From NCBI RefSeq assembly GCF_007747445.1, contig NZ_CP036425.1, positions 3,766,175 to 3,830,174 of the forward strand: 64,000 bases of DNA. Direction: 5' to 3'. The stretch comes from Poriferisphaera corsica. Lineage in GTDB: Bacteria; Planctomycetota; Phycisphaerae; Phycisphaerales; Phycisphaeraceae. Shown piece after piece: positions 4,963 to 62,218 of the stretch (positions are counted from its first letter, which is position 1; every line of letters begins with the position of its first letter). The position numbers and the translations under genes are program-made. Under the pieces are notes generated by a model. It made no database searches and was not told the DNA's origin. It saw only the letters and a program-made list of their open reading frames with translations.

Positions 4963-5493
4963 ATGCCGGTGTTAAAAGGACGCAAAATCGCGATGTTTGT
5001 AGGAGATGATTATGAGGACTTGGAATTGCAGTATCCGAAATATCGGATGCGTGAAGTGGGCGCAGAGGTGATAATTGCGGGAATTGAAGCGGGTGAGAAA
5101 TATGTTGGGAAATATGGATATCCGCAGGTGTCGGATGTTGCGGTGCGGGTGCTACGGGCAGAAGATTTCGATGGGTTAATTGTTCCGGGTGGGTGGATGC
5201 CTGATAAGCTCAGACGGTTTGACGAGGTATTGACGTTTACGAAGGGATTTGAGGAGCAAGAGAAAATGATTGCGTCGATCTGTCATGGGGCGTGGATTAA
5301 TATCAGCGCAGATGTGGTGAAGGGGTATCAGTACACGAGTACACCGGGAATTAAGGATGACATGATCAATGCGGGTGCAGTATGGGAAGATAGCGAAGTG
5401 GTCGTGGATCGGCATCATATTTCATCGAGAAGGCCGGATGATCTGCCTGCATTTTGCCGGGCGATGATTGATTACATGGTCAAACAGCGGTGA
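4963..5493 (+). CDS. DJ-1/PfpI family protein
   Basis: A 176-residue class I glutamine-amidotransferase-like protein of the PfpI/YhbO type. The nucleophile elbow is ASICHGAW with Cys107 and His108, and an acidic cluster at residues 18-21 (EDLE) supplies the usual partner Glu. PGGWMPD forms the oxyanion-side loop. Relatives act as glyoxalase/deglycase-like stress proteins or intracellular proteases, and the exact activity cannot be deduced. Start ATG 4963 follows AAGGAG at good spacing. It diverges from xylB across 130 bases, and no transcriptional link is implied. Confidence 0.88.
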   Translation: MPVLKGRKIAMFVGDDYEDLELQYPKYRMREVGAEVIIAGIEAGEKYVGKYGYPQVSDVAVRVLRAEDFDGLIVPGGWMPDKLRRFDEVLTFTKGFEEQEKMIASICHGAWINISADVVKGYQYTSTPGIKDDMINAGAVWEDSEVVVDRHHISSRRPDDLPAFCRAMIDYMVKQR

Positions 5494-5550
5494 GAATTTT
5501 GAGGGAGAGAGATGAGGGGGGATATGAGTTGAAGGCAATTGGTGCTTTTA

Positions 5551-5582
5551 TAGAAAAATAACCCGTCACCGGCGGTGACGGG
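5551..5582 (-). terminator. hairpin terminator for the SGNH hydrolase gene
   Basis: A perfect nine-base-pair stem CCCGTCACC/GGTGACGGG with a three-base loop. On the minus strand it is followed by TTATTTTTC. The plus-strand side has no T run, so it mainly serves the minus-strand gene. Confidence 0.75.
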
Positions 5583-5618
5583 CTTGACTGCGCTTTATTG
5601 TTTCTGCCTATTTAACGA

Positions 5619-6308
5619 TTAGCTAGTGGGTTGAGATTCGGGTTGCATGGCATGGGTCTGTGCAAATTGGCTAGTTGCGGATTGTGGTTCGAGGATGCCG
5701 AGTTCGGAGAAGATAAGGTGCGTAAAGGCGGCGTGGCCGAAAGCGTTGGGATGGAATGGGTCAGACATGCGGTTGATGTGTGCGTAGGGCGATGCGGATT
5801 GCCAGAGTTTGGCATGGTCGATGATTGGTAAGTTGTGTTTTTGGGCAGCATCACGGATGGCTTGCATGTAATCGTTAAAGGAGTTTTCGCGATCAAGGTT
5901 GAATCCGCCGGGGAGGACGGGGCATGTGGTTTGGAGGATGGTGTCGGTACCGAGTTTGGTGTTCATATCAATGAGGGTATCGAGGTTTTCGGCGAATTGT
6001 GGGAGTGGGACGTTGAGTTCATTTTGAGCGCAATCGTTCATGCCAATCATGAGGAAAATGACATCGGGGATGCGTTTGGTGACACGATGATCGTATTCAG
6101 CGATAAGGTTTTTTGTTGTTTGGCCGGAAATTGCGGTGTTGAGAACGATATCGTGTATGCGCGCCATTTCGCCGCGAATGCGTTCGTGAAAATGATCAAC
6201 GTAATTGCGTTGTGTGTTTGTATGACAGAGGCCGTGGGTGATGGAGTCGCCGTAGAAGAGCCATGTGATGGGTTGCTCGGATTGAAGGCGGGCTTTGATA
6301 CGTTGCAT
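5619..6308 (-). CDS. SGNH/GDSL-type hydrolase
   Basis: A 229-residue serine esterase/lipase-fold protein. Block I is FYGDSITHG (nucleophile Ser22), the block III Asn lies in IGMNDCAQNE, and the block V Asp/His pair is in DPFHPNAFGH. There is no signal peptide, so it is probably cytoplasmic. Family members deacylate carbohydrates, lipids or polysaccharides, and the substrate is unknown. AAGGA sits six bases before the ATG. About 200 bases separate it from the HAD gene; that gap holds an eight-base inverted repeat (6419-6426 with 6455-6462) without a T run. Confidence 0.88.
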   Translation of the reverse strand: MQRIKARLQSEQPITWLFYGDSITHGLCHTNTQRNYVDHFHERIRGEMARIHDIVLNTAISGQTTKNLIAEYDHRVTKRIPDVIFLMIGMNDCAQNELNVPLPQFAENLDTLIDMNTKLGTDTILQTTCPVLPGGFNLDRENSFNDYMQAIRDAAQKHNLPIIDHAKLWQSASPYAHINRMSDPFHPNAFGHAAFTHLIFSELGILEPQSATSQFAQTHAMQPESQPTS

Positions 6309-6508
6309 GTTGCGTCCTTGATTGATGATGGTTGCTAATACAGGGAACGAATGTGTGAGAATGCAGGCGTATTATAGGGGCATTTAAAGCGTCTTACTTA
6401 AATACCTACAGTGTTGACCAGCAGGTCGTTACGCGACAAATGCTTCTGATGTGAACCTGCTGTTGTTTGAGACATTGGCTTACTCTGCAAGTCATGACGC
6501 AAAATGCT

Positions 6509-7225
6509 CTAGATGAGGTCAGCGAGTGAGTGGATGATGAGATCGGGGATGATGTCGGACTCGGCGGGCAGGCCTTGGCGGCGCCAGTCGAGCCAAACGC
6601 CTTTGATGCCGAGTTGCTGAGGGGCGGCCACTTCCCAAGCGAGGCTATCGCCAATCATCCAGGCTTGGTCGGGGGTAACATCGAGTTCACTGAGTACGCG
6701 GTGGAAAAGTTTGGGTTCGGGCTTGCCGATGCCAATCTCACCTTCGATGTAGATTTTGTCGAAGTATTGTTCGAGCTCGAAATGAATAACTTTGGCACGT
6801 TGGGTGGCGGCCATGCCGTTGGTGAGGAGTGCGGTTTTGATGTTGCGATTTTTGAATTCGGCGAGTGCTGTCATCGCGCCGTCAAGTGGCTGCATGACGG
6901 GAATACGGTTGGCGGTGAAATCTTTTTGGAGTTGCTCGGCAAGGGTAGGAATATCATTGGGATATTCCATACGAACGAGCGTTTCGGTGATCATGTCAGC
7001 GCGAGCTTGCTCGAGATTGAGACGGCCGATGAGTGAACGCTGTGGATCTGACCAGAACCAATCGCGTACATCATCCATGTGTTGCGTAAAATGAGTGGGA
7101 TCGATGGGGATGCCGGCATCTCGGGCTCGCTGAGCAGTGTTGAGCCAATTACGATCGGCGGATGGCGTGGTATCGAGGATGGTATCATCGAGGTCGATGA
7201 GCAGAGCTGGAGGTAGCGTGATCAT
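6509..7225 (-). CDS. HAD-superfamily hydrolase (YjjG-like nucleotidase/phosphatase)
   Basis: A 238-residue phosphatase with all four HAD motifs: motif I LIDLDDTILDT (Asp11 and Asp13), motif II LLTNG, motif III Lys in GIGKPEPKLF, and motif IV MIGDSLAWEV. The alpha-helical cap between motifs I and II resembles YjjG-type pyrimidine 5'-nucleotidases, which remove phosphate from nucleoside monophosphates. Specificity is not certain. The ATG at 7225 places motif I at the usual N-terminal distance; the open frame extends 26 codons further into low-complexity sequence. It lies 75 bases downstream of ruvC on the same strand, so the two may be cotranscribed. Confidence 0.85.
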   Translation of the reverse strand: MITLPPALLIDLDDTILDTTPSADRNWLNTAQRARDAGIPIDPTHFTQHMDDVRDWFWSDPQRSLIGRLNLEQARADMITETLVRMEYPNDIPTLAEQLQKDFTANRIPVMQPLDGAMTALAEFKNRNIKTALLTNGMAATQRAKVIHFELEQYFDKIYIEGEIGIGKPEPKLFHRVLSELDVTPDQAWMIGDSLAWEVAAPQQLGIKGVWLDWRRQGLPAESDIIPDLIIHSLADLI

Positions 7226-7299
7226 GAAAGTAGGGTATATCGAAGATGGAAGTGAGTCTATTGGATGGGAAAGAAGGGATGGAAAATATGGGGGAGATA

Positions 7300-7875
7300 T
7301 CAACGAGAAGAAGTGACTTGATCAAAAGCGATGCGGCGGGCATGGGTGAGGGCAATGGCGATGGCGTCGGCGACATCGGGCGGTTCGGGGAGATTTGGGA
7401 GATTGCACTGGGACTGGACGGCGAGTTGCATTTGTGATTTGGAGGCGTGGCCGTAACCGGTGACGGATTTTTTCACTTCGTTGGCGGCGAGATGGAAAAT
7501 TTCCAAGCTGTGCTGCTTTGCGGCGAGGAGGATTGTGCCTCGAGCATGACCCATGATGATGGCGGTGTTGGGATGTTTGTAGTGTGCGAAGAGCTTTTCG
7601 ATAGCGAGTTGATGGGGATTAAGTTCGGTGATCAAAGCGGTGAGATCGGTGTGGAGAGCAAGCAGGCGGGATTCGATGGATTTCTTGGAGGAAAACTTGA
7701 ACACGCCGGCCTCAACAAGGGTGGGTTCGATTTCATTAGGCTGAAGATCGACGATGCCGTAGCCTGTGATCTGAAGGCCGGGGTCGATGCCAAGGATACG
7801 GAGAGGGCGATCGGGGTTGCGGGGATGATCAGCGAGGTCATCGGGGGTATGAGGATGGGCGTTGAGATCTGGCAT
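7300..7875 (-). CDS. ruvC: crossover junction endodeoxyribonuclease RuvC
   Basis: A Holliday-junction resolvase of 191 aa. The four acidic active-site residues are visible: Asp31 in LGIDPGLQITGYG, Glu93 in AIEKLF, and Asp167/Asp170 in PPDVADAIAIA. It cuts four-way junctions symmetrically with RuvA and RuvB, neither of which is in the window. About 25 non-conserved residues precede the core; no better start is available in frame. No clear Shine-Dalgarno site precedes the ATG. Confidence 0.95.
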   Translation of the reverse strand: MPDLNAHPHTPDDLADHPRNPDRPLRILGIDPGLQITGYGIVDLQPNEIEPTLVEAGVFKFSSKKSIESRLLALHTDLTALITELNPHQLAIEKLFAHYKHPNTAIIMGHARGTILLAAKQHSLEIFHLAANEVKKSVTGYGHASKSQMQLAVQSQCNLPNLPEPPDVADAIAIALTHARRIAFDQVTSSR

Positions 7876-8065
7876 AGGCTTAAGGATACCTGAGACGTGT
7901 TGAAAAGGTAAGTTTGCGAGCAGAGAAGGCGAAATATGCTTAAAATAAGTCGTTGGCGCAGATGCTTGTCATGGGCTTAGTGCGCGATTATGTTGATATA
8001 GTAAGCAGAGATCAGCGTCATTGGATGACACTGGTACTCAAGAAATTGCCACGGAGGGCCGCAGG

Positions 8066-10528
8066 TTGGCCAAGCGTAAGTCATCGAGTCGTAGAAAATC
8101 TAAAAGCAGCGACGAAGGTTTGCTGTTTGGTGGTGGTGCGTCTGAAGAGGGCGGGGGGTTAAAAGCTAGTGAAGAGCAGGTTTCATTGCATGAAGCAGCT
8201 CAGAAGCGGTATCTGAATTATGCGCTGAGTGTGATTACCTCACGTGCGTTGCCGGATGTTCGTGATGGATTTAAGCCGGTTCAGCGACGAATCGGGTTTA
8301 CGATGTGGCAGCAACGGCTGACTCATGAAGCGAAATTCCGTAAGAGTGCGAAGGTGGTGGGTGATGTGATGGGTAACTATCACCCGCATGGCGACTCGAG
8401 TATTTATGATGCGTTGGTGAGAATGGCGCAGCCGTTTGCGATGCGATTGCCGATGGTGGATGGGTCGGGGAACTTCGGGTCACTGGACGGGGATCCTGCG
8501 GCGGCGATGCGATATACGGAATGCCGTATGACAGCGGCAGCGGTGGAGATGCTGAATGAGATCGGGCAAAACACGGTCACGTTTCGGCCGAACTATGATG
8601 GCACGAAGAGTGAGCCGGTGGTATTGCCTGCGAAACTGCCGAACTTGTTGCTGAATGGGGCTACAGGTATTGCGGTGGGGATGGCGACAAGTATTCCGCC
8701 ACATAACTTGAGTGAGTTATGCAAAGCGCTGATTAGACTGATCGACGATCCGGAATTGACCAGCGCACAGCTAGCAAGAACGGTGAAAGGGCCGGACTTC
8801 CCAACGGGCGGCCAAATAATTAATAACCGGGAAGAACTTACGCAGATCTATAAAACGGGGTCGGGGACGGTGCGGACGCGAGGGACATGGGAGGCGGGCC
8901 CGGCAACGAGAACGGTTAAGAAACTTTACATCACATCGATCCCGTACATGGTGAACAAATCGACATTGGTGGAACGGATCGCGGATGTAGTGATCTCTCG
9001 AAAGATGCCGCTACTACTGGATGTGCGCGATGTGTCGACAGACGATATCCGTATTGAGCTTGACCTGAAAAAGGATGCAGACGAAAACAAAGTATTGGCG
9101 TATCTATATAAGAACACGCCGCTGCAGTCGAATTTTTCGGTCAACCTAACGTGCCTAGTACCGACGGACAATCCTGAGGTATGCGCGCCGGACAGGCTCG
9201 ATTTACGCTCGATTTTAAGGTATTTTCTTAACTTTAGGCTCGAAGTGGTCACACGGCGGCTTGAACATGAACTGAATGCACTGAATAAACGGATTCACAT
9301 TCTCGAAGGCTTCATGACGGTCTTTGATGCGCTTGATGAGATCATTCGTATCATCCGAAAATCCGAAGGCAAAGCGGATGCAGCGTCAAAGATCATAAAA
9401 AAATTCAAGCTGGATGAAGAACAGACAGATGCAATTCTTGAATTGAAATTGTATCGCTTGGCTCGACTTGAAATTCTAGTGATTCAAGATGAGCTTAAAG
9501 CAAAGAAAAAGCGGGCGAATGAGATTAAGAAGCTGTTGAACGACGAGACAGCAAACGGACGCTGGAAAATTGTTCGTGGTGAAGTCGAAGAGATGGAACA
9601 GCGATTTGGGAAGACTGACAAACGCCGCTCACTGATTGCATCGGTAGATGACGAGCCGGAATTCTCAGAAGAAGACTTCATCGTCGCTGAAGAAGCAAAC
9701 GTGCTCATCACGACAGATGGCTGGGTAAAACGCCAGAAAGAAATCAAAGATCCTGCAAACACTCGTTTGCGTGAAGGCGATTCTGTATTAGCGTGTGTCG
9801 CGGGATCGACTAGAAATACAGTTGTTTTCTTTTCGAATCTGGGCACAGCGTATACTGCACGCGTGCTGGATATCCCAGCAACGACCGGTTACGGGGAACC
9901 GATTCAGAAACTCTTCAAGCTGAAAGATGGCGAGAAAATTGTTGCGGCATACTCGCTTGACCCGCGTGCATTGGGCACGGACAAAAAATTCAGTGATGTT
10001 AAACTGAACGAAAAAAGCGGCTTAGAGTGGCCTCTGCAACATCTACTTGCGGTCACTTCGGATGGGTATGCCTTACGTATCTCGATTGAAAACTATATCG
10101 AGCCCTCAACGAAGGCTGGTAGAAAATTTGCACGCCCAGCGAAAGGCTCACGTGTCGTGGGAGTCGAGCTGGTCACAACCAAACCGAGAACAAAAACGAA
10201 GCTCCTTGAAACGATCTTGGCGGTCTCGGCAAATTGTCGCGCAATGATCTGCAAAGCAGAAGATGTCAACTTCCTGTCAGGACCAGGCAAAGGTGTGCAG
10301 CTGATTAAACTAGCGAAAGACGATCAAATCGTAGGATTCAAAGCGTCGACAGGTGATCGGGATCTCTTACGGGTCAAAACGAATCGTGGCGCGGAGAAGA
10401 CGATCTCAACCGCAAAATATAAGACAACTTCACGTGGCGGCAAAGGCACGGAGATCCAGAAACATGGCAAGATTACTTCTGTGATCCCTGAAGAGCCCGC
10501 ACCGCCACTGTTGATTGAAGATGAATAA
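8066..10528 (+). CDS. DNA gyrase/topoisomerase IV subunit A
   Basis: The breakage-reunion subunit of a type IIA topoisomerase, about 820 aa. [21 protein letters not shown] opens the core, and the catalytic Tyr150 lies in AAMRYTECR. The tower region ends near residue 490, and a beta-pinwheel C-terminal domain follows. The canonical GyrA box is absent where blade 1 normally carries it (the sequence there is [18 protein letters not shown]). A degenerate SRGGKG occurs only at residues 789-794, so gyrase versus topo IV identity is open. TTG 8066 is preferred because GGAGGG precedes it; TTG 8021 is an alternative. The B subunit gene lies about 490 bases downstream. Confidence 0.92.
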
Positions 10529-10572
10529 TCTTCGTGCCATACATGAGACTGTGTTGTAGTTAGGATTGTGAT

Positions 10573-10965
10573 ATGAAATGCTTACTGATCTTGGTTTTAT
10601 GCTTAGGTATGGCTGCATGCGGCGGAAATGGCAATGAGAATACTACAGAATCAACAGCCGAGGCAAGTAAGCCTAAGAAAATCACATTCACAGTCAAAAA
10701 TAAAACCGGCGCAAAAATCATAGATGTTGGCATCAATAGTAGCGATTCACGGATGACGCACATGAGCTACGGTTCGATAGAGAAAAGTAGCACAGAAACT
10801 CTGAAAAATAAGTACTTGCCAAGAACGATCGGCCTCCACTGGTCAAAAATGAATAAAGATCGTACTTCGGCCAACTTAAGAATAGGCGAAGCATTGGGGC
10901 CGAATTATCAAGGGCCGGTGACATTGACGATCCAACCCAACGGCAGCGTCAGCATTAGTAAATAA
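10573..10965 (+). CDS. small hypothetical lipoprotein between topoisomerase genes
   Basis: A 130-residue protein with a short basic start (MKC), a hydrophobic helix and a lipobox MAAC, with lipidated Cys at about residue 16, followed by a Gly/Asn/Thr-rich linker (GGNGNENTTEST). The mature domain from residue 35 (KITFTVKNKTGAKIIDVGI) looks like a compact beta sandwich. It is probably a periplasm-facing lipoprotein. It lies in the same direction between the two topoisomerase subunit genes, 44 bases after the first and 51 before the second, so it is probably in their operon. AGGA precedes the ATG. Function unknown. Confidence 0.75.
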   Translation: MKCLLILVLCLGMAACGGNGNENTTESTAEASKPKKITFTVKNKTGAKIIDVGINSSDSRMTHMSYGSIEKSSTETLKNKYLPRTIGLHWSKMNKDRTSANLRIGEALGPNYQGPVTLTIQPNGSVSISK

Positions 10966-11016
10966 ACAAATTTCAACCATACGTTGATCACAATAAAGAG
11001 TGGCATTAGGGAAACA

Positions 11017-12951
11017 ATGGCCAAGAAAAAAGCAGCATCATCTGGTGGATCATATACCGCGAAGGATATCACGGTCCTAGAAGGACTTGACCCTGTCCGT
11101 AAACGTCCTGGCATGTATATTGGTGGCGTTGGGTCAACGGGCTTACATCACTTGGTATGGGAAATATTAGATAACTCTGTCGATGAAGCCATGAACGGCC
11201 ACGCGACCGAAATCAGTCTAACACTGCACAAAGATGGTACATCCATCTCTGTCTCAGACAATGGGCGCGGTATCCCTGTAGATATTCATCCGAAGCATAA
11301 GAAATCTGCACTGGAAATCATTCTCTCCACGCTTCATGCGGGCGGTAAATTTGAAAACGCCAACTACAAAACTTCCGGTGGCTTACATGGTGTTGGTGCT
11401 TCAGTCGTTAATGCACTTTCAACAAAGCTCTACGCAACGGTGAAACGTGATGGCTACGAATGGCAGTTAAAATTTAGGACGGGCAAAGCCGACGGTAAAA
11501 TCAAAAAACTTGGGAAAGCTCGCGGCTCGGGTACGACCATCTATTTCCACCCAGATCCAACCATTTTTCCTAAAACCAACTTCAATCCAGAAACGATCCA
11601 GCAACGACTTGAAATAGTGTCGTTCCTACATAAAAACGTAAAGGTCACCTACCACAATGAGGTGGATGGCAAGACTGAAGTCTTCGAGAATAAAAACGGC
11701 ATCGCGGATTTTTTACAAAAAATCACCAAAGAGCATAACGCCAAGCCCTTAAACCATGCAGTCTTTGCCTTGGAAAAGGAAGGCATTGAAGGTAAATGCG
11801 AAATTGTTTTCCATTGGACAGAATCAACCGATGAGTTGATCCGGTCTTACGTCAACGGCATTCCAACCGGGTCAGGCGGATCACACGAAAACGGCATGCG
11901 GGCTGGGATCACCAAAGCAGTCCGCAACTATATCGATACGCACAACCTCACTCCGCGCGGCGTCAAACTCACACATGAAGACATCCGCGAAGGCATCGTT
12001 GGTATCTTGTCTATCTTTATTCCAGATCCGCAATTCCAGGGCCAGACGAAAGATCGTTTGAACAATTCTGAGGTTCAACCTTATATTGATAATGCTCTTC
12101 GACCTGCCCTTGAACATTGGCTGAATCATAATCGAACATCTGCTGAAGGCATCGTTTCACGTATCATTGCTGCAGCCAGAGCGCGTGAAGCATCACGTGC
12201 TGCATCGGCTTCGGTCTCTCGTAAGTCAGCAACAACAAACCGCTTGACTTTACCTGGGAAGTTGGCTGATTGCCTGACTTCAAATCGAAATAACACGGAA
12301 CTGTTCATCGTCGAAGGTGATTCTGCAGGCGGCTCAGCAAAACAAGGCCGCGATAGAAATCACCAAGCAATTCTACCTCTTCGCGGCAAGGTTCTGAATA
12401 CCGAATCTCTTGGCCTTTCTAAAGTCATGGGCAATAAAGAAATTTCCGATCTAATCACTGCATTGGGTTGTGGAATTGGCAAAGATTTTGATATTAGTCG
12501 GCTAAGATATGCACGTGTCGTCCTGTTAGCCGATGCTGATTCTGATGGCCATCACATTACCACGCTGCTTCTGACATTCTTCTTCAGGCACATGAAGGAT
12601 CTTATTACTGCAGGCCGTGTTTATATCGCGGTTCCACCGCTCTACCGCGTAGATATTGGCAAAGAAACCTACTGGGCTGCTGACGAAGATCACCGCGAAA
12701 AAATCCTCACAGATTATAAAAAAGGCAATGCAAAGGTTGAGATCACGCGTTTCAAAGGGTTGGGCGAGATGATGCCCAAAACACTCTGGCAGACAACGCT
12801 TAACCCAAAAACCCGAAGCCTTTTGCGTGTCGATATTACAGACGGCTTAACTGCCGACCGCATCATGAACGATCTTATGGGTAAGGATCCTTCTGCACGC
12901 TTCTCATTTATTATGGAACATGCAGAGGATGCAGATGATTTAGACGTTTAA
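11017..12951 (+). CDS. DNA gyrase/topoisomerase IV subunit B
   Basis: The ATPase/TOPRIM subunit of a type IIA topoisomerase (644 aa, without the insert seen in long proteobacterial GyrB). The GHKL ATPase motifs are EGLDPVRKRPGMYIG, EILDNSVDEA, DNGRGIPV and GGLHGVGASVVNALS. The TOPRIM domain has FIVEGDSAGGSAKQGRD and the metal-binding DADSDGHH. RFKGLGEM is typical of the C-terminus. I chose ATG 11017 (AGGGA upstream) over an in-frame TTG 33 bases earlier. It works with the A subunit encoded upstream to change DNA supercoiling or decatenate chromosomes. Confidence 0.94.
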   Translation: MAKKKAASSGGSYTAKDITVLEGLDPVRKRPGMYIGGVGSTGLHHLVWEILDNSVDEAMNGHATEISLTLHKDGTSISVSDNGRGIPVDIHPKHKKSALEIILSTLHAGGKFENANYKTSGGLHGVGASVVNALSTKLYATVKRDGYEWQLKFRTGKADGKIKKLGKARGSGTTIYFHPDPTIFPKTNFNPETIQQRLEIVSFLHKNVKVTYHNEVDGKTEVFENKNGIADFLQKITKEHNAKPLNHAVFALEKEGIEGKCEIVFHWTESTDELIRSYVNGIPTGSGGSHENGMRAGITKAVRNYIDTHNLTPRGVKLTHEDIREGIVGILSIFIPDPQFQGQTKDRLNNSEVQPYIDNALRPALEHWLNHNRTSAEGIVSRIIAAARAREASRAASASVSRKSATTNRLTLPGKLADCLTSNRNNTELFIVEGDSAGGSAKQGRDRNHQAILPLRGKVLNTESLGLSKVMGNKEISDLITALGCGIGKDFDISRLRYARVVLLADADSDGHHITTLLLTFFFRHMKDLITAGRVYIAVPPLYRVDIGKETYWAADEDHREKILTDYKKGNAKVEITRFKGLGEMMPKTLWQTTLNPKTRSLLRVDITDGLTADRIMNDLMGKDPSARFSFIMEHAEDADDLDV

Positions 12952-53071: not shown

Positions 53072-53105
53072 AAAAAGGGAGACGCCACCGGTACTGGCGT
53101 CTCCC
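53072..53105 (-). terminator. terminator after the GHL10 gene
   Basis: GGGAGACGCCA pairs with TGGCGTCTCCC (11 bp) around a seven-base loop. Five T follow on the minus strand. It lies about 60 bases beyond the stop codon at 53165. Confidence 0.92.
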
Positions 53106-53164: not shown

Positions 53165-54709
53165 TTACTTCTTAGGCAACTCAAGAACACTCTTCTCTGA
53201 AAGTGCTGCATTCTCACCTTGAAGCGTGACAACAACCATCTCCACATCACCCTTCTTGCCTGGCAGCTTGACCTTCGCGCTACGATCACTCGTTGGCAAA
53301 ATGTCATACGTCCACGCACCATCACGTTTTACCTGAACAACCCAGTTAATGCCCTGCTTCGCACTCTTTGCATCAAGCATCACATCAACTGTTTTCGCGG
53401 TAATCCGTGAAACCTTCGCTTTAGGCAGCGCCGGCGCTTCAGTACCTAACCATGGCGATTCAGGCACCAAAGCCTTCTTCGCATACACAGTACTCTTAAG
53501 GGTATCCGTCAGACCGCCCTTATTTTTCATCAAACTAATCATCGAGAAGTGAACCGTACCCGGATTTTCCTTCACGATAATACGTGACCATTCAACCTGA
53601 CGTTTAATCTCATCACGGTCGTAAGGACGACGTGTCCCTTCTTCCGTCATCGATGTAAACAAGCCCGGCCACAAGTGACGCTGCTGCGTATTCTCATCGT
53701 TCCACCAGTTCAGCAAACTGATATACGACTGCGCTGGCTTACGGATTTCCCAGTAGAGCTGAGGTGTGAAGTAATCCAACCAGCCTTCATTAAACCACAG
53801 TTTCGCATCAGCATAAATGGCTTCGTACTGATCCATTCCTGCGACATTCGATGGATAGCCCGGCTTCCAAATCCCAAACGGGCTGATACCAAACTTCACT
53901 TCAGGATTAACCTTCTTAAGTTCTTTGTAGAACTTCTTGATGAACTGATTCACGTTATCACGACGCCAGTCGTTCTTCGACAACTTGCCGCCAGCATCTT
54001 GGTAACGCTTATATGAATCCGCATCCGGGAAATCCAAATACGCACCCTTCTTGTTCGGATCAGCCGCACGATACGGATAAAAGTAGTCATCAATATGAAT
54101 ACCATCAACGTCGTATCGCTTCGCAACGTCGAGGAACACATCCATCGACCGCTGCATCACTTCTGGCTCACCCGGATCCATCCACATAAACGAACCGTAT
54201 TCTTTCGAAAGCTCCGGATTCGTCTTATTAATATGGTTGTCCGCATACTTCTTATTCGTTGGATGCCCTGAACGATACGGATTAAACCAAGCATGAAGCT
54301 CTAACCCGCGCTTATGCGCTTCTTCAACAGCCATTTCTAATGGATCGTAATATGGCTTCGGCGCCACACCCTGCTCACCAGTAATATAGTATGACCAAGG
54401 CTCAAGATCCGACTCATAAAGCGCATCAGCCGTCGTACGGATCTGGAAGATCACCGCATTCAGGTTAAGCTCTTTACACTTATCCATGATCGCGATCAGC
54501 TCTTTTTTCTGCTCAGCTGTCGTCAAGCCCGGCTTGGTCGGCCAGTCTATATTCGCAACCGTCGCAACCCATGCCGCACGAAACTCGCTCGGCACATCCG
54601 GTATCTCTGACAACTGTTTCTCCGTTGCAGGCTTCGCTTGCGCGACGCAAGCCATAAGCCCCATCACGAATCCCACCATCAACATCATTGTCCAACGCGT
54701 GTTATGCAT
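53165..54709 (-). CDS. GHL10-family glycosyl hydrolase (DigH-like)
   Basis: A 514-residue exported enzyme of the GHL10/DUF187 family. A signal peptide (about 1-25) ends in LMACVAQA, which may be a lipobox (LMAC). The barrel begins with FRAAWVATVANIDWP; NAVIFQIRTTADALY, GLELHAWFNPYRS, DGIHIDDYFYPY (catalytic acid region), FGISPFGIW and LDYFTPQLYWEI follow. E. coli DigH of this group cleaves peptide-free peptidoglycan glycan strands at division sites. A small C-terminal beta domain (about 420-514) follows. AGAGGA is four bases before the ATG. It lies next to a SpoIID-domain gene on the same strand. Confidence 0.9.
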   Translation of the reverse strand: MHNTRWTMMLMVGFVMGLMACVAQAKPATEKQLSEIPDVPSEFRAAWVATVANIDWPTKPGLTTAEQKKELIAIMDKCKELNLNAVIFQIRTTADALYESDLEPWSYYITGEQGVAPKPYYDPLEMAVEEAHKRGLELHAWFNPYRSGHPTNKKYADNHINKTNPELSKEYGSFMWMDPGEPEVMQRSMDVFLDVAKRYDVDGIHIDDYFYPYRAADPNKKGAYLDFPDADSYKRYQDAGGKLSKNDWRRDNVNQFIKKFYKELKKVNPEVKFGISPFGIWKPGYPSNVAGMDQYEAIYADAKLWFNEGWLDYFTPQLYWEIRKPAQSYISLLNWWNDENTQQRHLWPGLFTSMTEEGTRRPYDRDEIKRQVEWSRIIVKENPGTVHFSMISLMKNKGGLTDTLKSTVYAKKALVPESPWLGTEAPALPKAKVSRITAKTVDVMLDAKSAKQGINWVVQVKRDGAWTYDILPTSDRSAKVKLPGKKGDVEMVVVTLQGENAALSEKSVLELPKK

Positions 54710-54790
54710 TGTATCCTCTAATCGTTTAATAGAATTCTAAAACGTTCGAACATCAGCCCATCGCCTGACGCCCAAATCTAATGTTTCCTC

Positions 54791-56245
54791 TTATTTACCA
54801 CGCCGCCTCAGCAGCATACCCATCACTCCACCAAACACCAACAAACTCGCAGGCTCTGGGATCGGTACAGCAACCGCACTCATGTCATAAAAGACATCAT
54901 CCATATAAACCACCGTATCCGATTTTCCAAACAATTGGATCGAATCCAGCGAGAACCTCATACCAATCTCCCCATTACCACCACCCGTCCAAGCTTCCCA
55001 ATAATCCGCATCCTCAAAGAACCACTCATATTTATGCCACTCACCGTCACCAATCACATCAAACTTCACACCACGATCGCCCGTTCCGACTGCCGCACTG
55101 TACCCATCCGCATTATCATCCACAGCAATCGACACCTTCATGTCGTCTGCTTCTGTCTTCAGCCATACCCCGACCGACCCCTCTGCCTCCAGTAATACGT
55201 TCGCTGTCTTCGACGCGATCATCGAATTCTGAACATTCTGAACCCCAGCGACGTGACGCAGAAAATATCCTGAATCGGACGTGTCTGTTGCCTCATCATA
55301 ATCAATAACGATCTTCTGTGAGCCATCACCTGAGTGAGCCATTCCTGCGTCATCAAGCAATGAGGTCGTCGTCCCCGCTCCAATATGCTTATTGCTACCA
55401 GAATACAGCGGCGAATGCCCAAATATCCCTGATTTCGACTTGGATTGCTGCCATGTAGGCGATTCGAAATCCGCCAAGCTACGCTTCTCAAATTTCGCCT
55501 GATCCGTCCACGTCTTACGCATCACACTCTCAAGCTGAATATCACCACCGTAGTAATATTTTAGAATGTCCATATAGTTCCAACCCAGATCAGCTAAATA
55601 ATCCGCCCCATTCTGCGACATACACCCACGATTGATCGGATTCGCCAACGATCCAAGCGTTGACCCCTGATTGTTATCGCCCCATTTGTCATTTGGATAG
55701 TTGTACGTCACATATTTTTCAGTTGGATAGTCCCACCAGAAATCCTTTGGCGTGTCATCACCAGGCTTCAGCGGCAACTCACTAACCTTACTCCCAGCAA
55801 CATAAAACGACGCAATATACTTCCCATTAAACGTCAGTATCTCACCCGCCGTCGCTTTTACAGCATCCTTATGCTTCTGCCGTGGGTCTTGCTTCCCCGG
55901 CGTTCTGAAAACCTGATCCCCCTGCCCGTTTTGAATCTTGCCCCAGTTGTACATCTTGTAATAAGCAAACGTTCTCGCCGCCACCGCCTGCGCCTTCAAC
56001 GCTTCCGTACCCGCTGCACCATTCTCACAATCCACAACGCCCGGCAAATACGTATCTTCTAAGTTGTATACACCATCAAACTGATTACCCCACTCACCTC
56101 CCTCGACTGTAATATCTTCCATCCGCCACATGTAATCTATCGCACCCGCTTCACCACTCATCATCAAACTCATCCCGCCCGCCAACAATGCCCCACATAA
56201 ACAGTTCATACCAAAACGTACGGTGTCTCTCTTCGACTGCTGCAT
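54791..56245 (-). CDS. SpoIID/LytB-domain protein with PEP-CTERM anchor
   Basis: A 484-residue exported protein. A signal peptide (1-36) is followed by a SpoIID domain: LPGVVDCENGAAGTEALKAQ with the probable catalytic Glu74, then AVAARTFAYYK and the rest up to about residue 240 (FNGKYIASFYVAGSKVSELPL). SpoIID cuts peptide-free glycan strands as a lytic transglycosylase. Residues about 270-450 form a beta-rich carbohydrate-binding-like domain (MIASKTANVLLEAEGSVGVW, YMDDVFYDMS). The C-terminus is IPEPASLLVFGGVMG plus LLRRRGK, a PEP-CTERM signal. ATG 56245 follows GGGAG by eight bases. It lies 82 bases upstream of the GHL10 gene, so the two are probably cotranscribed. Confidence 0.88.
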   Translation of the reverse strand: MQQSKRDTVRFGMNCLCGALLAGGMSLMMSGEAGAIDYMWRMEDITVEGGEWGNQFDGVYNLEDTYLPGVVDCENGAAGTEALKAQAVAARTFAYYKMYNWGKIQNGQGDQVFRTPGKQDPRQKHKDAVKATAGEILTFNGKYIASFYVAGSKVSELPLKPGDDTPKDFWWDYPTEKYVTYNYPNDKWGDNNQGSTLGSLANPINRGCMSQNGADYLADLGWNYMDILKYYYGGDIQLESVMRKTWTDQAKFEKRSLADFESPTWQQSKSKSGIFGHSPLYSGSNKHIGAGTTTSLLDDAGMAHSGDGSQKIVIDYDEATDTSDSGYFLRHVAGVQNVQNSMIASKTANVLLEAEGSVGVWLKTEADDMKVSIAVDDNADGYSAAVGTGDRGVKFDVIGDGEWHKYEWFFEDADYWEAWTGGGNGEIGMRFSLDSIQLFGKSDTVVYMDDVFYDMSAVAVPIPEPASLLVFGGVMGMLLRRRGK

Positions 56246-56296
56246 CTGCGACTCTCCCTTAATGATGTCTCTCTCAAATTGCCACGCATCACGCAC

Positions 56297-56902
56297 TCAG
56301 TCTTACACAACCCACCGAGTGGATGCCCTCCATACATGACCGACTGGTCTCTCACATCTGCCTGCACGTATAGCTCAAATATTATTCTATAACTTTAACG
56401 CCCAATCACCAGACTTTTTTTTTCGACACGCTTCAATCAATCTCAGCCTATATGCACAAATAGCTTTTAAACATATACTTTATCCATCTTTACATCGATT
56501 TGTATCATATATAAAATAGACAAAAAAGTGTTGTCACTGACCTATTTGCCGGGTAAACTAGACCTTTGTTATAGAAGTATCACAAAAACTGATTACTCCG
56601 TATCTGCTGAATTTACAATCATTTATGCCTTTCCCCGCAGCAGTTCAATCATTTTTCTGTAATCAGAAATACCACAATTCCTCACATTCAGTTCACCGTA
56701 CCCCAGCCCCAGATTCATACCAATCGCATGCCGGTTCTTTGCAGCTCCTACTCTGTTGCCAAAACCATGCATGACAATCTTCTGTACTGCCCACCCCCGT
56801 TTCATATCTTTACCGGGCAGCAAAATATGTTCTGTATCTTTCTGACATTTGAACATCAATCGTGTTCAGTCACATCTTTCATTTCACTAAGGAGGAAACT
56901 CG
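56297..56902. other. intergenic region between divergent envelope genes
   Basis: About 600 bases between the SpoIID-type gene (leftward) and the first PEP-CTERM gene (rightward). It is AT-rich around 56380-56600, likely promoters in both directions. A minus-strand frame at 56623-56859 (78 aa, starting MMFKCQKDTEH) has gene-like composition but no recognised relatives, and its upstream region overlaps the leader of the right-hand gene. Confidence 0.4.
56623..56859 (-). CDS. uncertain small ORF
   Basis: A 78-residue frame (rich in Gly, Lys and Arg: GFGNRVGAAKNRHAIGMNLGLGYGEL) in an otherwise gene-free region. It has no recognised domain and no clear ribosome-binding site. It may be a real small gene, a fragment of a lost gene or chance. 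The base composition is less C/T-skewed than the neighbours. Confidence 0.2.
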   Translation of the reverse strand: MMFKCQKDTEHILLPGKDMKRGWAVQKIVMHGFGNRVGAAKNRHAIGMNLGLGYGELNVRNCGISDYRKMIELLRGKA

Positions 56903-57658
56903 ATGAGAGGGACCCTACTAACTTTGACCGGTGCTGCAGCGTTCTGCTTCGTAGCCCAAGCCAATGCCGCTGTCATCTTCGAAGATAACTTCGATAGCTA
57001 CGCAACCATTGGCGATATAAGCCCTACATGGTCTGCAACCACCACTGCTTCCATTGTTACCGACGACAATGGCGGCAACGCCATCCTCATGGACGGCTCC
57101 GCTCCAAACGGTGCTAACAACACTGCAATTCACGCAATCACCGAACTCAAACCCACCGCGACTGAATCCATCAAACTCACTGGCCGCATCTACGATGATG
57201 GTGCCGGTAACAAGCGTAGCGCCATCGGCTTCCGCAACGGCGCAACCCCGCTCTTCGAAATGGGTCGCTACAACGGCCTACTCGATACTTCATACGCTGC
57301 TCGTGCAGTCAACTTCCCCGGTGCGAACCCAAGCTGGGTACAGCTCTCCACCGAAGGCGCAACCGAAGGCTGGCACCTCTTAGAAGCCATCTTCACACTC
57401 GATAACGTCAACGTCACCATTGACCTCGGCAGCGACGGCACAATCGACGGCACACTCGATATCGCTCTTGATGAAACCCTCTGGGCAGCATCACCCGGCT
57501 TCGTCGAAGTACGCATGGGTGGCCCATCAGGCCTATCATCTGCTGGTGGTGGCCTCGCATACGACAACATCAAACTCGAAACAATTGCTGTCCCCGAACC
57601 AGCCTCACTCGCATTGCTCGGCCTCGGCTCACTCGCATTCATGCGCCGCCGCAAATAA
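56903..57658 (+). CDS. PEP-CTERM sorted protein (paralogue 1)
   Basis: A 251-residue secreted protein. A signal peptide ends at about residue 22 (AQANAAV). The beta-rich domain starts with IFEDNFDSYATI and contains GRIYDDGAGNKRSAIGFRNG and VNFPGANPSWVQLS, followed by DNIKLETIAVPEPASLALLGLG and FMRRRK. Proteins of this kind are anchored and released or bound at the cell surface by exosortase-type enzymes. The domain is LamG-like (choice-of-anchor) by pattern. Ribosome-binding site AAGGAGGAAACTCG before the ATG. It shares architecture and many identical motifs with the next gene, indicating duplication. Confidence 0.88.
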   Translation: MRGTLLTLTGAAAFCFVAQANAAVIFEDNFDSYATIGDISPTWSATTTASIVTDDNGGNAILMDGSAPNGANNTAIHAITELKPTATESIKLTGRIYDDGAGNKRSAIGFRNGATPLFEMGRYNGLLDTSYAARAVNFPGANPSWVQLSTEGATEGWHLLEAIFTLDNVNVTIDLGSDGTIDGTLDIALDETLWAASPGFVEVRMGGPSGLSSAGGGLAYDNIKLETIAVPEPASLALLGLGSLAFMRRRK

Positions 57659-57724
57659 ACCCACACAGCACACCTATCGTCGTGAAAAACCTCTGTTTTC
57701 CACGCTTTAGACAATCAAATACCG

Positions 57725-57758
57725 CAAAACGCTCACCCTTTGGTGAGCGTTTTGTTTT
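57725..57758 (+). terminator. terminator after PEP-CTERM paralogue 1
   Basis: CAAAACGCTCACC pairs with GGTGAGCGTTTTG (13 bp) around a four-base loop, followed by TTTTG. It lies about 65 bases after the stop codon. Confidence 0.92.
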
Positions 57759-58183
57759 GCGCTTTTCCCATACATGCCCACTTATCCACATCCCACGCAC
57801 GTTTCTTCGACCCCCATATCGACTCGTTCGCCCAATCTAAATCTCGCCCTAACCTCTCTCTAATTCAATCATTTACAACCTTCTCATTAATTCTTATACA
57901 AATCACCCTCTTTAAATGATTGAATGTTCATTGACGTGATATATACTTATACTTAATTATATAATTATTAGGCACTGATCTTATTTTCACCAGTACTAAC
58001 GCTTAATTTACACGCAGCTACTCAGCCGTCATACCCAGTCAAATTTGTTCTCAACCTCAATGACCGTGCGACCTCTGCCCTTACGACTGATTTTCACTGC
58101 AATCTTTTTTTTCGATTCGTAGTATTTGTGTTTGAATTGTTTCATATTTTTGCCCTACACATCTTTTCCCTCGGAGGAAACAT
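57759..58183. other. intergenic region and leader of PEP-CTERM paralogue 2
   Basis: About 425 bases. The middle (57890-57975) is very AT-rich (taattatataattatta) and likely contains the promoter. A leader of some 180 bases then precedes the start codon, with GGAGGA just before the ATG. No gene seen. Confidence 0.45.
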
Positions 58184-58915
58184 ATGAGAAGTACGCTCCT
58201 AGCTCTAACCGGTGCTGCTGCACTTGGTATTGCAACATCCGCCTCAGCCGCCGTCATCGTCGAAGATAATTTCGATTCCTATTCAGATACCGCTGCCATG
58301 CAAGCTGTCTGGGGAGACGCAGGCCTCGGAACGCTCGTCGACGCAACCACAGTCGGCGGATCCGGCAACGCCATGTCACACAACGGTGGCCAAGTCAACA
58401 GCATCGCACTCGACAACCTCGCGCCAACCGCCTCGACAAATGTCGTCCTTAGTGGCACATACTACGATGATGGTGTTGGTAACAAACGTATCTCAATCGG
58501 TTTACGTAATGGTGCCAACCCACTCTTTGAATTCGGCATCTACAACAACCCATCCGGCTATGCCACACGTATCGTTAACTTCCCTGGTGCATCACCAAGC
58601 TGGGTACAGATCGAAAAAACACAAGTCGAAGGTTGGCATTCCTTCAACATCGAATTCGGTCTCGACAGCATCACATCCGTCTTTGATATCAGCAGCGACG
58701 GCGAAGATCTCTACGAAACAACCACCGATCTCTCCGGCGACGCTTGGGCAAGCGGCTTCGGTGAACTCCGCATCGGCGGCCCTTCAAACTACTCCTCCAC
58801 AGGTGGCGGCCTCATCTTCGACAACATCAAACTCGAAACTGTCGCAGTTCCAGAGCCAGCCTCACTCGCACTCCTCAGCCTCGGCGCTCTCGTCGCACTA
58901 CGCCGTCGCAAGTAA
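58184..58915 (+). CDS. PEP-CTERM sorted protein (paralogue 2)
   Basis: A 243-residue secreted protein, paralogue of the preceding one. Signal peptide with ASA cleavage site (about residue 22, TSASAAV), beta domain with VEDNFDSYSDT, GTYYDDGVGNKRISIGLRNGANPLFEFG, and VNFPGASPSWVQIEK, then DNIKLETVAVPEPASLALLSLG and LRRRK. The conserved blocks (DDG(A/V)GNKR, VNFPGA(N/S)PSWVQ, EGWH) are shared with paralogue 1, while the surface loops differ. TCGGAGGAAACAT precedes the ATG. It has its own promoter region and terminator. Confidence 0.88.
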   Translation: MRSTLLALTGAAALGIATSASAAVIVEDNFDSYSDTAAMQAVWGDAGLGTLVDATTVGGSGNAMSHNGGQVNSIALDNLAPTASTNVVLSGTYYDDGVGNKRISIGLRNGANPLFEFGIYNNPSGYATRIVNFPGASPSWVQIEKTQVEGWHSFNIEFGLDSITSVFDISSDGEDLYETTTDLSGDAWASGFGELRIGGPSNYSSTGGGLIFDNIKLETVAVPEPASLALLSLGALVALRRRK

Positions 58916-58940
58916 ACCCATCCCCACCCATTCAAATTAC

Positions 58941-58973
58941 AAAACGCCGCGGCCAACACCGTGGCGTTTTTTT
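58941..58973 (+). terminator. terminator after PEP-CTERM paralogue 2
   Basis: AAAACGCCGCGG pairs with CCGTGGCGTTTT (one G-T wobble) around a six-base loop, followed by a T run. About 25 bases after the stop codon. Confidence 0.9.
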
Positions 58974-59300
58974 CATCCCCCCATCTCCCCCCCTGTCCCC
59001 TCTTCTGTACACCCTTTCTCTTTCTCTCTCAACACACCCTTTACACGCCATCGCGGATTCATTCCATATAACGAATTCTTTAATATTTTCATTGACTGTT
59101 CTTTTAGGAAACGTATACTCGACCCAAATAAATGCTGTAGCTCATCTTTATCTTTTCACCTCCGCCTGCCCAAGACAATGACCTTTCAGGCTACGCACAG
59201 TTCTAGCTAGCCTCAATTTCGTTCCTATCTGCTAAATATGCGTATCAGTTCGCTTTATATTTGTTCCTTTCCATGCATCTTCTACTTACCGGAGGATCTT
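58974..59300. other. intergenic region upstream of PEP-CTERM protein 3
   Basis: About 330 bases, pyrimidine-rich on the plus strand, then AT-rich with probable promoter around 59070-59120 (ttctttaatattttcattgactgttc). GGAGG precedes the next ATG. No gene or hairpin found. Confidence 0.4.
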
Positions 59301-60017
59301 ATGAGATCAACACGACTTGCCTTAGCCGGCCTCACCGCCATGACATTGGCATCCACTTCTTTCGCTGGCATGGTTTACCAAGACTACGAAGGCACCTGGG
59401 ATACAGACACAGATACCGTCAACTTCAGCTACGCCATCACCACCTCAGGCAGCAACCAGAATATCGGTGCTGAGAGTACACTCGAAATCGTCGACGGCGG
59501 ATACAACAGCACAAAAGCCGCAAAAATTAAGATCGTTGCAAGCGCCGCAGACCAAGCGCCTGACGCTCGTTACATCGTCAACAAAAACGCAACCATCACC
59601 GCCGCCAACCCAAAAGTCGATGCCAACGGCTACCTCGGCTACTACTACAAACTCGATTCACAATACGCCGATCAAGCCGTCAAACTCGCACTCACCATCG
59701 ATGATCCCGGCACAGCAGATACCGCCGTCAAAGTCGATGCCATCGCAGACGGCAACTGGCACATGGTTCAGTGGTCACTCGACAACAACGATGACTGGGA
59801 CGTATTCGCATACCCCGGTGGTCTCGGCAACGGCCAAGTCGATGAAGCCAAAATATCCATCGATTCACTCTACATCGGCGGCAAAGAAGGCGCTAACTTC
59901 GAAATCTTTATCGATACCATCACTCACGCCGAAACCGGCCTCACCGACGTTCCTGAACCCGCATCACTCGCTTTGCTCGGTCTCGGCTCACTCGCATTCA
60001 TGCGCCGCCGCAAATAA
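59301..60017 (+). CDS. PEP-CTERM sorted protein (type 3)
   Basis: A 238-residue secreted protein. Signal peptide MRSTRLALAGLTAMTLASTS with cleavage near FAG at about 23. The domain (YQDYEGTWDTDTDTVNFSY to AKISIDSLYIGGKEGANFEIFIDTITHAE) is beta-rich and not closely related to the other two, but resembles the carbohydrate-binding-like region of the SpoIID protein in its DSLYIGG/DSIQLFG and FIDTI/YMDDV elements. The C-terminus is VPEPASLALLGLG plus FMRRRK. ATG 59301 has GGAGG five bases upstream; the longer frame begins in leader sequence. Confidence 0.85.
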   Translation: MRSTRLALAGLTAMTLASTSFAGMVYQDYEGTWDTDTDTVNFSYAITTSGSNQNIGAESTLEIVDGGYNSTKAAKIKIVASAADQAPDARYIVNKNATITAANPKVDANGYLGYYYKLDSQYADQAVKLALTIDDPGTADTAVKVDAIADGNWHMVQWSLDNNDDWDVFAYPGGLGNGQVDEAKISIDSLYIGGKEGANFEIFIDTITHAETGLTDVPEPASLALLGLGSLAFMRRRK

Positions 60018-60663
60018 AACCACAACATCGCTCGCTACAGTTCTCCCCAACCCTCTCTTACCGCAACAGATGATGCACCACGCAATGTGCACCATCGATC
60101 TCAGAGCCTCATCAACCACTCATTGTATGTGTGCAATTTAAGAATCACGCAGACCTGAAAATGATTCATAGCTGCAACGGGTTTAGCACTGGATACATAC
60201 TGATATCCAATGACTTAACCTTCAGGCCAGCCAGCGTTTCTCCAAAACAGCAACCGCTGACAACCTGCAACTCAATCCGTACTTCCAAAGTATGATTGTT
60301 GATTCTTAAATTCATCAAGAAGCACCCTGCTAAAACAGGGTGCTTCTTTTCTCTCAAATAACCCCTTCAATACGCCCCCCATTTGCGACACCCCTCCCCT
60401 GACCACGCTAAGCCCCTCCACATAACATTTTCATTCAATCCCTGAAAATTCCCCCTGTGATTTGCCCAATTTTGTGTTAATCTGATAAGACTTATATAAC
60501 ACCTAAGCACAACGATGTGTTCAACATCATCGTTACCACAAAAACGCTCCTCACACTCGCCTCTACGCACAGCATTCAAATTCACAAACCACCAAGCGCC
60601 AACCACCAAGCGCCCGCTTGTTTGCTCACACAAGAGCTTTCTATTTATAAGGATACGTTGAAG
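60018..60663. other. intergenic region with an orphan terminator
   Basis: About 645 bases. A strong terminator (60317-60350: AAGAAGCACCCTG pairs with CAGGGTGCTTCTT, then TT) stands 300 bases beyond the upstream stop codon, so either the PEP-CTERM transcript has a long 3' tail or an unannotated short transcript ends here. A minus-strand frame at 60166-60315 (MNLRINNHTLEV) is not convincing. The promoter of the amidase gene likely lies around 60470-60500 (GTTAATCTGATAAGACTTATATAA). Confidence 0.45.
60317..60354 (+). terminator. orphan Rho-independent terminator
   Basis: A 13-pair stem (AAGAAGCACCCTG/CAGGGTGCTTCTT) with a six-base loop and a T run. No annotated gene ends within 250 bases upstream. 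Confidence 0.88.
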
Positions 60664-61722
60664 ATGGATTCACACATCAACAAAACCAAAACCATCAAGG
60701 CCGCTGCGATCACCGCCTGTCTCGCCGCAACGACACTCGCCATGACCGCATGTACCACCCCGCAAGAAGTAAAGCCCGGTGCAAAAATCGAGCGTTCAAA
60801 TCAGGAAATCATCGTTGCTGGCCAACGATTCAACGTCGGCGCTCCTGTCGTACTCTGGACCGATCCGGGTGGATACGATGCATACCGTGTTGATAAACGT
60901 TTCGGCGATATCGACAGCGGCAAATGGGAAAATATCAAAGAGTCGATTGATACCCCAAACCGTTACAACCTTCGCTACGGCAAGCCCAGCCAAGGGATGT
61001 GGTCCAAAGATGAACTCGAGCAGATCCGCGGCGGCGGCTGGGAACTTGAGCAACTGCAAGAGGTTGTGGATCAGTTCGTGTATCACTACGACGTCTGTGG
61101 TACGAGTGAAGTCTGCTTCCGCGTGTTGCATGATATGCGTGGATTATCCGTACACTTCATGCTCGATATTGATGGCACGATTTACCAAACGATGGACCTG
61201 AAAGAACGTGCATGGCATGCTGGGACATCGAATGACCGCTCGGTTGGGATTGAGATTGCGAACATTGGCGCATACTCAAAGAAAGAGCTGTCAAAAGAAA
61301 ACAACGCACTCGATCAGTGGTACAAGTGGGATGAAAATCAGAAAACCTACATCAGTATCCCCGAACGTTTGGGCGATGGCGGTGTGAAGACGCCTAACTT
61401 TGTTGGTCGGCCATCGTTTAATGACAAGATCAAAGGCAACGTCCAGGGCCGCGATCTTTATCAATACGATTTAACGCCGCAGCAGTACGAATCATTAGTC
61501 AAGCTGACAGCTGCACTTACTGAAATCTTCCCGAAGATGAAATTGGATTACCCACGAGATGAGCATGGTGAATTGATCACGACCGTCTTGCCAGAAAACG
61601 GTAAAGATTTTTCAGGCTTGGTAGGCCATTACCACGTCAGCAAGCGCAAGATCGATCCGGGGCCAGCGTTCCAGTGGGATCGCATCATTGATGATGTAAA
61701 GAAAATCAAGGGTAAAAAATAA
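60664..61722 (+). CDS. N-acetylmuramoyl-L-alanine amidase (Amidase_2), lipoprotein
   Basis: A 352-residue zinc amidase of the AmpD/T7-lysozyme fold that removes stem peptides from peptidoglycan glycan strands. Lipobox MTAC with lipid Cys30 predicts membrane anchoring. The zinc ligands are His141 in FVYHYDVCGTS, His322 in GHYHVS and Asp331 in KIDPGPAFQWD; the catalytic region includes HFMLDIDGTIYQTMD and AWHAGTSNDRSVGIEI. Insertions (about 205-260) are longer than in AmpD. ATG 60664 is chosen because AAGGA precedes it and the longer frame is low complexity. It lies in the same region as two glycan-strand hydrolases. Confidence 0.92.
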   Translation: MDSHINKTKTIKAAAITACLAATTLAMTACTTPQEVKPGAKIERSNQEIIVAGQRFNVGAPVVLWTDPGGYDAYRVDKRFGDIDSGKWENIKESIDTPNRYNLRYGKPSQGMWSKDELEQIRGGGWELEQLQEVVDQFVYHYDVCGTSEVCFRVLHDMRGLSVHFMLDIDGTIYQTMDLKERAWHAGTSNDRSVGIEIANIGAYSKKELSKENNALDQWYKWDENQKTYISIPERLGDGGVKTPNFVGRPSFNDKIKGNVQGRDLYQYDLTPQQYESLVKLTAALTEIFPKMKLDYPRDEHGELITTVLPENGKDFSGLVGHYHVSKRKIDPGPAFQWDRIIDDVKKIKGKK

Positions 61723-61754: not shown

Positions 61755-61784
61755 AAAGGGTCAGCTTCGGCTGACCCTTTTCTT
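61755..61784 (+). terminator. terminator after the amidase gene
   Basis: AAAGGGTCAGC pairs with GCTGACCCTTT around a UUCG tetraloop, followed by T-rich sequence. A classical strong terminator. Confidence 0.95.
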
Positions 61785-62218
61785 TTGGCGGTTTGAACAA
61801 CTGAAAGATGGCTGAGATATTGCGAGCGAGTCGCTGCGGCGCGGCGGGGTTTGGCGCACAGATTGCTATTTTCAGGGGGTTTCCTGTAGATCTTTTGGGT
61901 TGGTTTTGATTAGAAACCATTACGTTTTTGAAAGAAACGGTCTAAAAAAGTTTGGTTTTGATTGGTTTTGAACAGGCGAAATGGGCTTATTTCCGTGTTT
62001 GTGCGCGCAAATGCAAAAGCGCATTTTTGGCACGCGGTTTGCATATGCGCACGGATGTGTGCATATGTGAGCAGATTATTTTTATTCTATTCGTCAATTA
62101 GATTGAGTATAAGACTTTGATGTGCGCGCGATCCCATTTTTGCGCACAGATTGTCATGATCTTGAACTGAGTCTTTTTCTAAACGAGTAGAAACAAAGCA
62201 TGGCTGCAAACGTCTTGA
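61785..62218. other. intergenic region with GCGCGCACA-type words and TTGGTTTTGA repeats
   Basis: About 435 bases without a gene. TTGGTTTTGA occurs at 61900, 61952 and 61962. TTTGTGCGCGCAA lies at 61998-62010, TGTGCGCGCGATC at 62121, TTTTGCGCACAGATT at about 62138-62152, and GGTTTGGCGCACAGATTG near 61848-61865. These resemble words at 29.4-29.7 kb on the other strand. Confidence 0.6.

Follow-up and report, generated by a model that had tools for sequence, protein, structure and literature searches.

A putative envelope-anchored peptidoglycan-degradation gene set around a SpoIID-GHL10 pair in Poriferisphaera corsica

A known system that combines a peptidoglycan amidase with SpoIID is the DMP machinery (SpoIID-SpoIIM-SpoIIP), in which the amidase makes denuded glycan and SpoIID cuts it, with E101 as the catalytic Glu of the C. 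difficile enzyme (PMC6221140). A second SpoIID protein is known from the chlamydia Waddlia, where it is partly septal and cuts naked glycan in vitro (PMC6635528). Among GHL10 enzymes, C. difficile Cwp19 is a lytic transglycosylase (PMC6016235), and E. coli DigH gathers at midcell (PMC12288456). PEP-CTERM sorting of surface proteins is linked to exopolysaccharide (PMC1569441), and FtsZ has been reported absent from the class Phycisphaerae (PMC8882080). A literature search for Phycisphaerae and SpoIID together found nothing, and in the literature on SpoIID, planctomycetes and peptidoglycan a set of the kind described below is undescribed at the level of titles and abstracts.

Gene content and gene order

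We analysed a window of 64,000 nucleotides (the whole stretch of DNA under study) from the genome of P. corsica, a single contig of 4,291,168 bases. The DigH-like GHL10 protein, the SpoIID protein and the Amidase_2 lipoprotein named by the earlier note were all recovered by profile searches, with PF02638 (E 4e-63, 213.8 against a cut-off of 27.9), PF08486 (E 7.8e-14, 52.5 against 23) and PF01510 (E 1.5e-19, 71.1 against 26), respectively.

Features of the SpoIID-GHL10-amidase locus, in window coordinates
Feature	Position	Strand	Basis or remark
Terminator-like hairpin 3' of GHL10, 11-bp stem and T tail, strong	53077..53105	-	terminator-like site
GHL10 glycosidase, DigH/Cwp19-like, 514 aa	53165..54709	-	PF02638; gene 2 of the SpoIID-GHL10 pair
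Compact SpoIID lytic-transglycosylase-like protein, 484 aa	54791..56245	-	PF08486/TIGR02669/TIGR02595
Parts of SpoIID			signal peptide, SpoIID domain, CBM-like module (about 260-455), PEP-CTERM
PEP1, PEP-CTERM protein, putative lectin-like fold (homology to PEP2)	56903..57658	+	PF07589 E 1.4e-7
PEP2, PEP-CTERM protein, concanavalin-like beta-sandwich	58184..58915	+	PF07589, AF2, Foldseek
PEP3, PEP-CTERM protein, stand-alone homolog of the CBM-like module at the SpoIID C-terminus	59301..60017	+	PF07589
Amidase_2 lipoprotein, AmpD-fold type, 352 aa	60664..61722	+	PF01510
Terminator-like hairpin 3' of amidase	61755..61780	+	terminator-like site

Judged by Shine-Dalgarno sequence and signal peptide, three starts are shifted downstream relative to the listed open reading frames: the likely start of SpoIID (listed as 54791-56296, minus strand) is the ATG at 56245, and those of PEP3 and the amidase are the ATGs at 59301 and 60664, inside their listed frames. 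SpoIID and GHL10 are codirectional and separated by a gap of 81 bp that holds no terminator-like site. The locus comprises at least two transcription units on opposite strands, the amidase having a terminator-like site of its own. Beyond the amidase, and upstream of an open reading frame at 62219, lies an AT-rich stretch (window positions 61990-62160) in which TGCGCA/TGCATATG words recur and which also holds an inverted repeat of 16 pairs.

Gene order was compared in 397 genomes of the class and then in 51 genomes of one GTDB family. The class sample had limited the linkage to the genus plus a loose case in Phycisphaera mikurensis, a picture that the family sample overturned. Adjacent, codirectional SpoIID and GHL10 genes with a divergent amidase beside the pair occur in genera g1 (two species), g285 and g295; in g285 (G413, G414, G417) and g295 (G428) the amidase lies next to SpoIID. 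The same trio order is found on a short contig with a larger gap in G418, the pair alone at a contig end in G415, and in a fourth genus (G422) amidase and GHL10 are divergent neighbours. SpoIID-GHL10 linkage was also seen in P. mikurensis (G149) and in the OFTM389 MAG, and in genera g4, g5 and g6 the genes are unlinked. The earlier note had made its reading depend on a gene order conserved beyond close relatives: the linkage does reach several genera of one GTDB family, and the one instance found beyond that family is a loose GHL10-amidase linkage in G119 (about 4 kb).

Outside the genus, the compared loci share with the window's reading frames only the trio and PEP-like genes, except for the g6 GHL10 loci and one G119 match. 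The g6 loci concerned (L110, L112) lie near homologs of the genes at window positions 4963-12951, which are ~45 kb away in this window. A search for related loci returned mostly canonical SpoIID of other phyla. Compact SpoIID relatives were seen in Myxococcota-like MAGs (L139-L142, L210), some of them lipoprotein-like, with neither GHL10 nor this amidase nearby, as was an Armatimonadota MAG in which a GHL10 gene adjoins a SpoIID gene (L177 8298-10378), a single case for which chance could suffice.

In the congener P. heterotrophicis (G359; 5,234,020 bases) the whole neighbourhood is kept, unrelated flanks (AlkD, RNase HII) included; this genome also carries a tandem SpoIID duplication (L097 8353-11944). 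That even unrelated flanks keep their order within the genus would be expected if the three envelope genes were neighbours by descent only, inherited nearby with no joint function, and the co-occurrence statistics given below, which ignore shared ancestry, leave room for the same explanation. Across genera, however, conservation is limited to the trio and PEP-like genes and the flanks turn over, and nested presence holds also where the genes are unlinked, so we consider mere descent unlikely. The SpoIID-GHL10-amidase grouping is not a product of chance: its order is kept in at least three genera while the flanks differ, and this conservation, together with co-occurrence, places it beyond coincidence. 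Quick trees of SpoIID and GHL10, with modest support, broadly resemble each other, and linked loci fall on both sides of them; this pattern suggests that the linkage is old and has been lost several times.

Across the 51 family genomes, presence is strictly nested, SpoIID (15) falling within GHL10 (17) and GHL10 within amidase (25); the corresponding p values are 4e-11 and 7e-8 with genomes treated as independent and shared ancestry ignored, and 8e-6 and 5e-5 at the genus level, likewise ignoring ancestry. The most informative presence/absence contrast is g6, where G131 and G395 carry both SpoIID and GHL10, unlinked, and G410 (100% complete) has neither and keeps the amidase. G416 lacks all three genes, an absence that one assembly gap could explain. 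Most family genomes, many of them near-complete, are without both SpoIID and GHL10. Class-wide, GHL10 and amidase co-occur in 29 of 34 genomes (p 3e-18, family members included and ancestry ignored), mostly unlinked, and outside the family their linkage is rare. AlkD was tried as a control for co-occurrence and proved unusable because it is confined to the genus. The order of distribution would fit an amidase acting first and cutters of denuded glycan second, a genomic prediction of enzyme order that is testable in vitro.

Predicted enzymes and PEP-CTERM proteins

The best PDB match of the GHL10 protein is Cwp19 (5oq2, E 3.5e-74), and it is 35% identical to E. coli DigH over 341 aa. Across 17 sequences including DigH, the DDYFY, NPxR and PQxYW motifs have invariant residues, among them D207, D208, Y209, R146, Q317 and Y319. 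A lipobox is clear in most relatives and weak (LMAC) in the P. corsica protein. By homology to DigH and Cwp19, its substrate is probably peptidoglycan.

SpoIID scores 90.6 bits against TIGR02669 (cut-off 83.3), and its E74, unchanged in 16 orthologs, lines up with E101, the catalytic residue of the C. difficile enzyme (numbering via the 5i1t alignment). In a model of low overall confidence (pTM 0.43), residues 40-242 superimpose on 5i1t (Z 14.8, rmsd 3.4, 161 aligned) and residues 275-460 match CBM-type beta-sandwiches (CBM11, Z 10.3). The canonical GHGVGMSQWGA region reads NRGxxSQNGA in P. corsica-type SpoIID. With a score of 59.4 bits against the sporulation equivalog TIGR02870, under its cut-off of 234.75, the protein is by profile not a sporulation SpoIID. 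Judging from its family and conserved residues, the protein may be a lytic transglycosylase acting on denuded glycan, with peptidoglycan as the likely substrate by homology to the SpoIID family.

The C-terminal domain of SpoIID carries no Pfam name, and its profile found no convincing sequence relative in the PDB (one match, E 0.042). PEP3, which matches it at 28% (E 1.2e-14), is the module on its own, and the same genome also has it on phosphodiester glycosidases and a further GHL10 protein; given its presence on the glycosidases, it need not bind peptidoglycan. Three proteins with the module are encoded near 995 kb, 997 kb and 1117 kb (L077, L078): the first is a phosphodiester glycosidase (NAGPA) with a weak PEP-CTERM match, and the other two look similar. 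Near 1180 kb (L079), a GHL10 domain is fused to a SpoIID-type C-terminal module and a PEP-CTERM-like end.

In the amidase, the lipobox Cys30 and the metal-ligand-type residues H141, H322 and D331 are invariant in 11 orthologs. Its PDB matches are AmpDh2 and AmpD, with an alignment to AmpDh2, and it scores 62 bits against the AmpD equivalog NF008758, under the cut-off of 143.

The three PEP-CTERM proteins that had been counted between the enzymes are confirmed, and the total rises to four, since SpoIID itself ends in this signal (TIGR02595 17.2 to 23.2 against 16 for the four). SpoIID has the score of 17.2 and falls just below the Pfam cut-off (19 vs 20.7), and its PEP motif is invariant in 16 orthologs. 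The genome encodes three exosortases (PF09721) and one SPOR domain. PEP1 and PEP2 are paralogs (50%); the AF2 model of PEP2 (pTM 0.73) gave Foldseek matches to lectin, galectin and PL7 structures, and by homology PEP1 probably has a lectin-like fold as well. Of the 13 genomes with PEP1/2-like proteins, 12 are SpoIID-positive (p 3e-8, ancestry again ignored).

Proposed role of the gene set

We favour, at somewhat better than even odds, the reading that the locus encodes an accessory peptidoglycan-degradation set, anchored in the envelope and co-inherited within a single family of the Phycisphaerae. Teamwork of the three enzymes is plausible. Judging from its family, the lipoprotein amidase would strip stem peptides, and the compact SpoIID transglycosylase and the DigH-like GHL10 would cut the denuded glycan, as family membership, conserved residues and nested distribution suggest. 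The PEP-CTERM/exosortase route would deliver SpoIID, its CBM-like module would keep it on glycan, and the neighbouring lectin-fold PEP-CTERM proteins probably bind the same surface glycan. The likeliest use of such a set is localised wall turnover or peptidoglycan processing, rather than an essential division step. Several points count against this explanation: the genes are unlinked in three genera, compact SpoIID of Myxococcota lacks GHL10 and the amidase nearby, the C-terminal module also occurs on phosphodiester glycosidases, and the co-occurrence p values ignore shared ancestry.

A set sorted to the surface could also act on foreign glycan. For nutrition or in competition, the enzymes might degrade another surface polysaccharide or the peptidoglycan of other bacteria or of necromass, with the lectin-like proteins holding the foreign glycan. 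The patchy, accessory distribution, the lectin-fold neighbours, the recurrence of the CBM-like module on a phosphodiester glycosidase and other GHL10 proteins, and the tie between PEP-CTERM sorting and exopolysaccharide (PMC1569441) are in keeping with this. The closest characterised GHL10 and SpoIID proteins nevertheless target their own wall, and the lipoboxes of the amidase and of most GHL10 relatives fit a periplasmic or membrane site, which makes an outward-acting set possible, though on the unlikely side.

The earlier note had proposed a dedicated wall-remodelling set, perhaps for division. The idea of a set survives, given the gene order in at least three genera, the nested presence and the sorting signal and CBM-like module of SpoIID; a dedicated division role is not supported. 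FtsZ is absent from the P. corsica genome, and the enzymes could in principle act on denuded glycan at the septum when daughter cells separate in FtsZ-less Phycisphaeraceae, by analogy with SpoIID of Chlamydiales. The septal and glycan-cutting behaviour of the chlamydial protein, the midcell gathering of DigH and the SPOR domain in the genome agree with such a role. Genes essential for division should, however, be present in all dividing members, and the set is missing in part or whole from many of the 51 genomes, including near-complete ones that also divide without FtsZ. Because SpoIID and GHL10 are patchy in a family generally without FtsZ, a core division role is weakened. Next to the trio we found no known division gene, and the genes are unlinked in three genera. 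We regard a dedicated division set as quite improbable; turnover or scavenging of the cell's own or of foreign peptidoglycan is no less likely than a core division role. A shade more doubtful again is a wall-splitting machine for daughter-cell release by budding or fission, in which the surface-sorted SpoIID, the DigH-like hydrolase, the amidase and lectin-like partners would cooperate and exosortase would place the transglycosylase outside the wall.

With accessory peptidoglycan degradation as the preferred reading, the locus bears on how FtsZ-less planctomycetes cut and reshape peptidoglycan, offering a small, named set of co-inherited enzymes from which clear biochemical predictions follow. 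A compact form of SpoIID that combines a CBM-like module with an exosortase signal comes to light as well; our literature search found no description of it, nor of a SpoIID-type wall enzyme as PEP-CTERM cargo.

Comparison with described systems

The locus resembles DMP in its predicted logic and in keeping the SpoIID catalytic Glu. In contrast to DMP, its neighbourhood contains an Amidase_2 enzyme rather than a SpoIIP-type amidase and no SpoIIM anchor near the trio, which sets it apart from that system; moreover, the P. corsica SpoIID is compact, with a CBM-like module and PEP-CTERM replacing the canonical GHGxGMSQWGA region. The GHL10 catalytic domain is shared with Cwp19, which differs in being anchored via CWB2 repeats and in having a role in autolysis. 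DigH has the same domain and conserved active-site motifs, the specificity of the P. corsica enzyme being predicted, whereas digH does not adjoin a SpoIID gene in E. coli. The Waddlia protein is alike in its PVC-superphylum, FtsZ-less host, its SpoIID domain and glycan cutting; no description of a GHL10 partner or sorting signal was found there, and chlamydial SpoIID is a conserved division candidate, while P. corsica-type SpoIID is patchy in its family. Finally, P. corsica follows PEP-CTERM/exosortase sorting in having four signal-bearing proteins at this locus and three exosortases in its genome, and departs from it in that the cargo includes a SpoIID-type wall enzyme.
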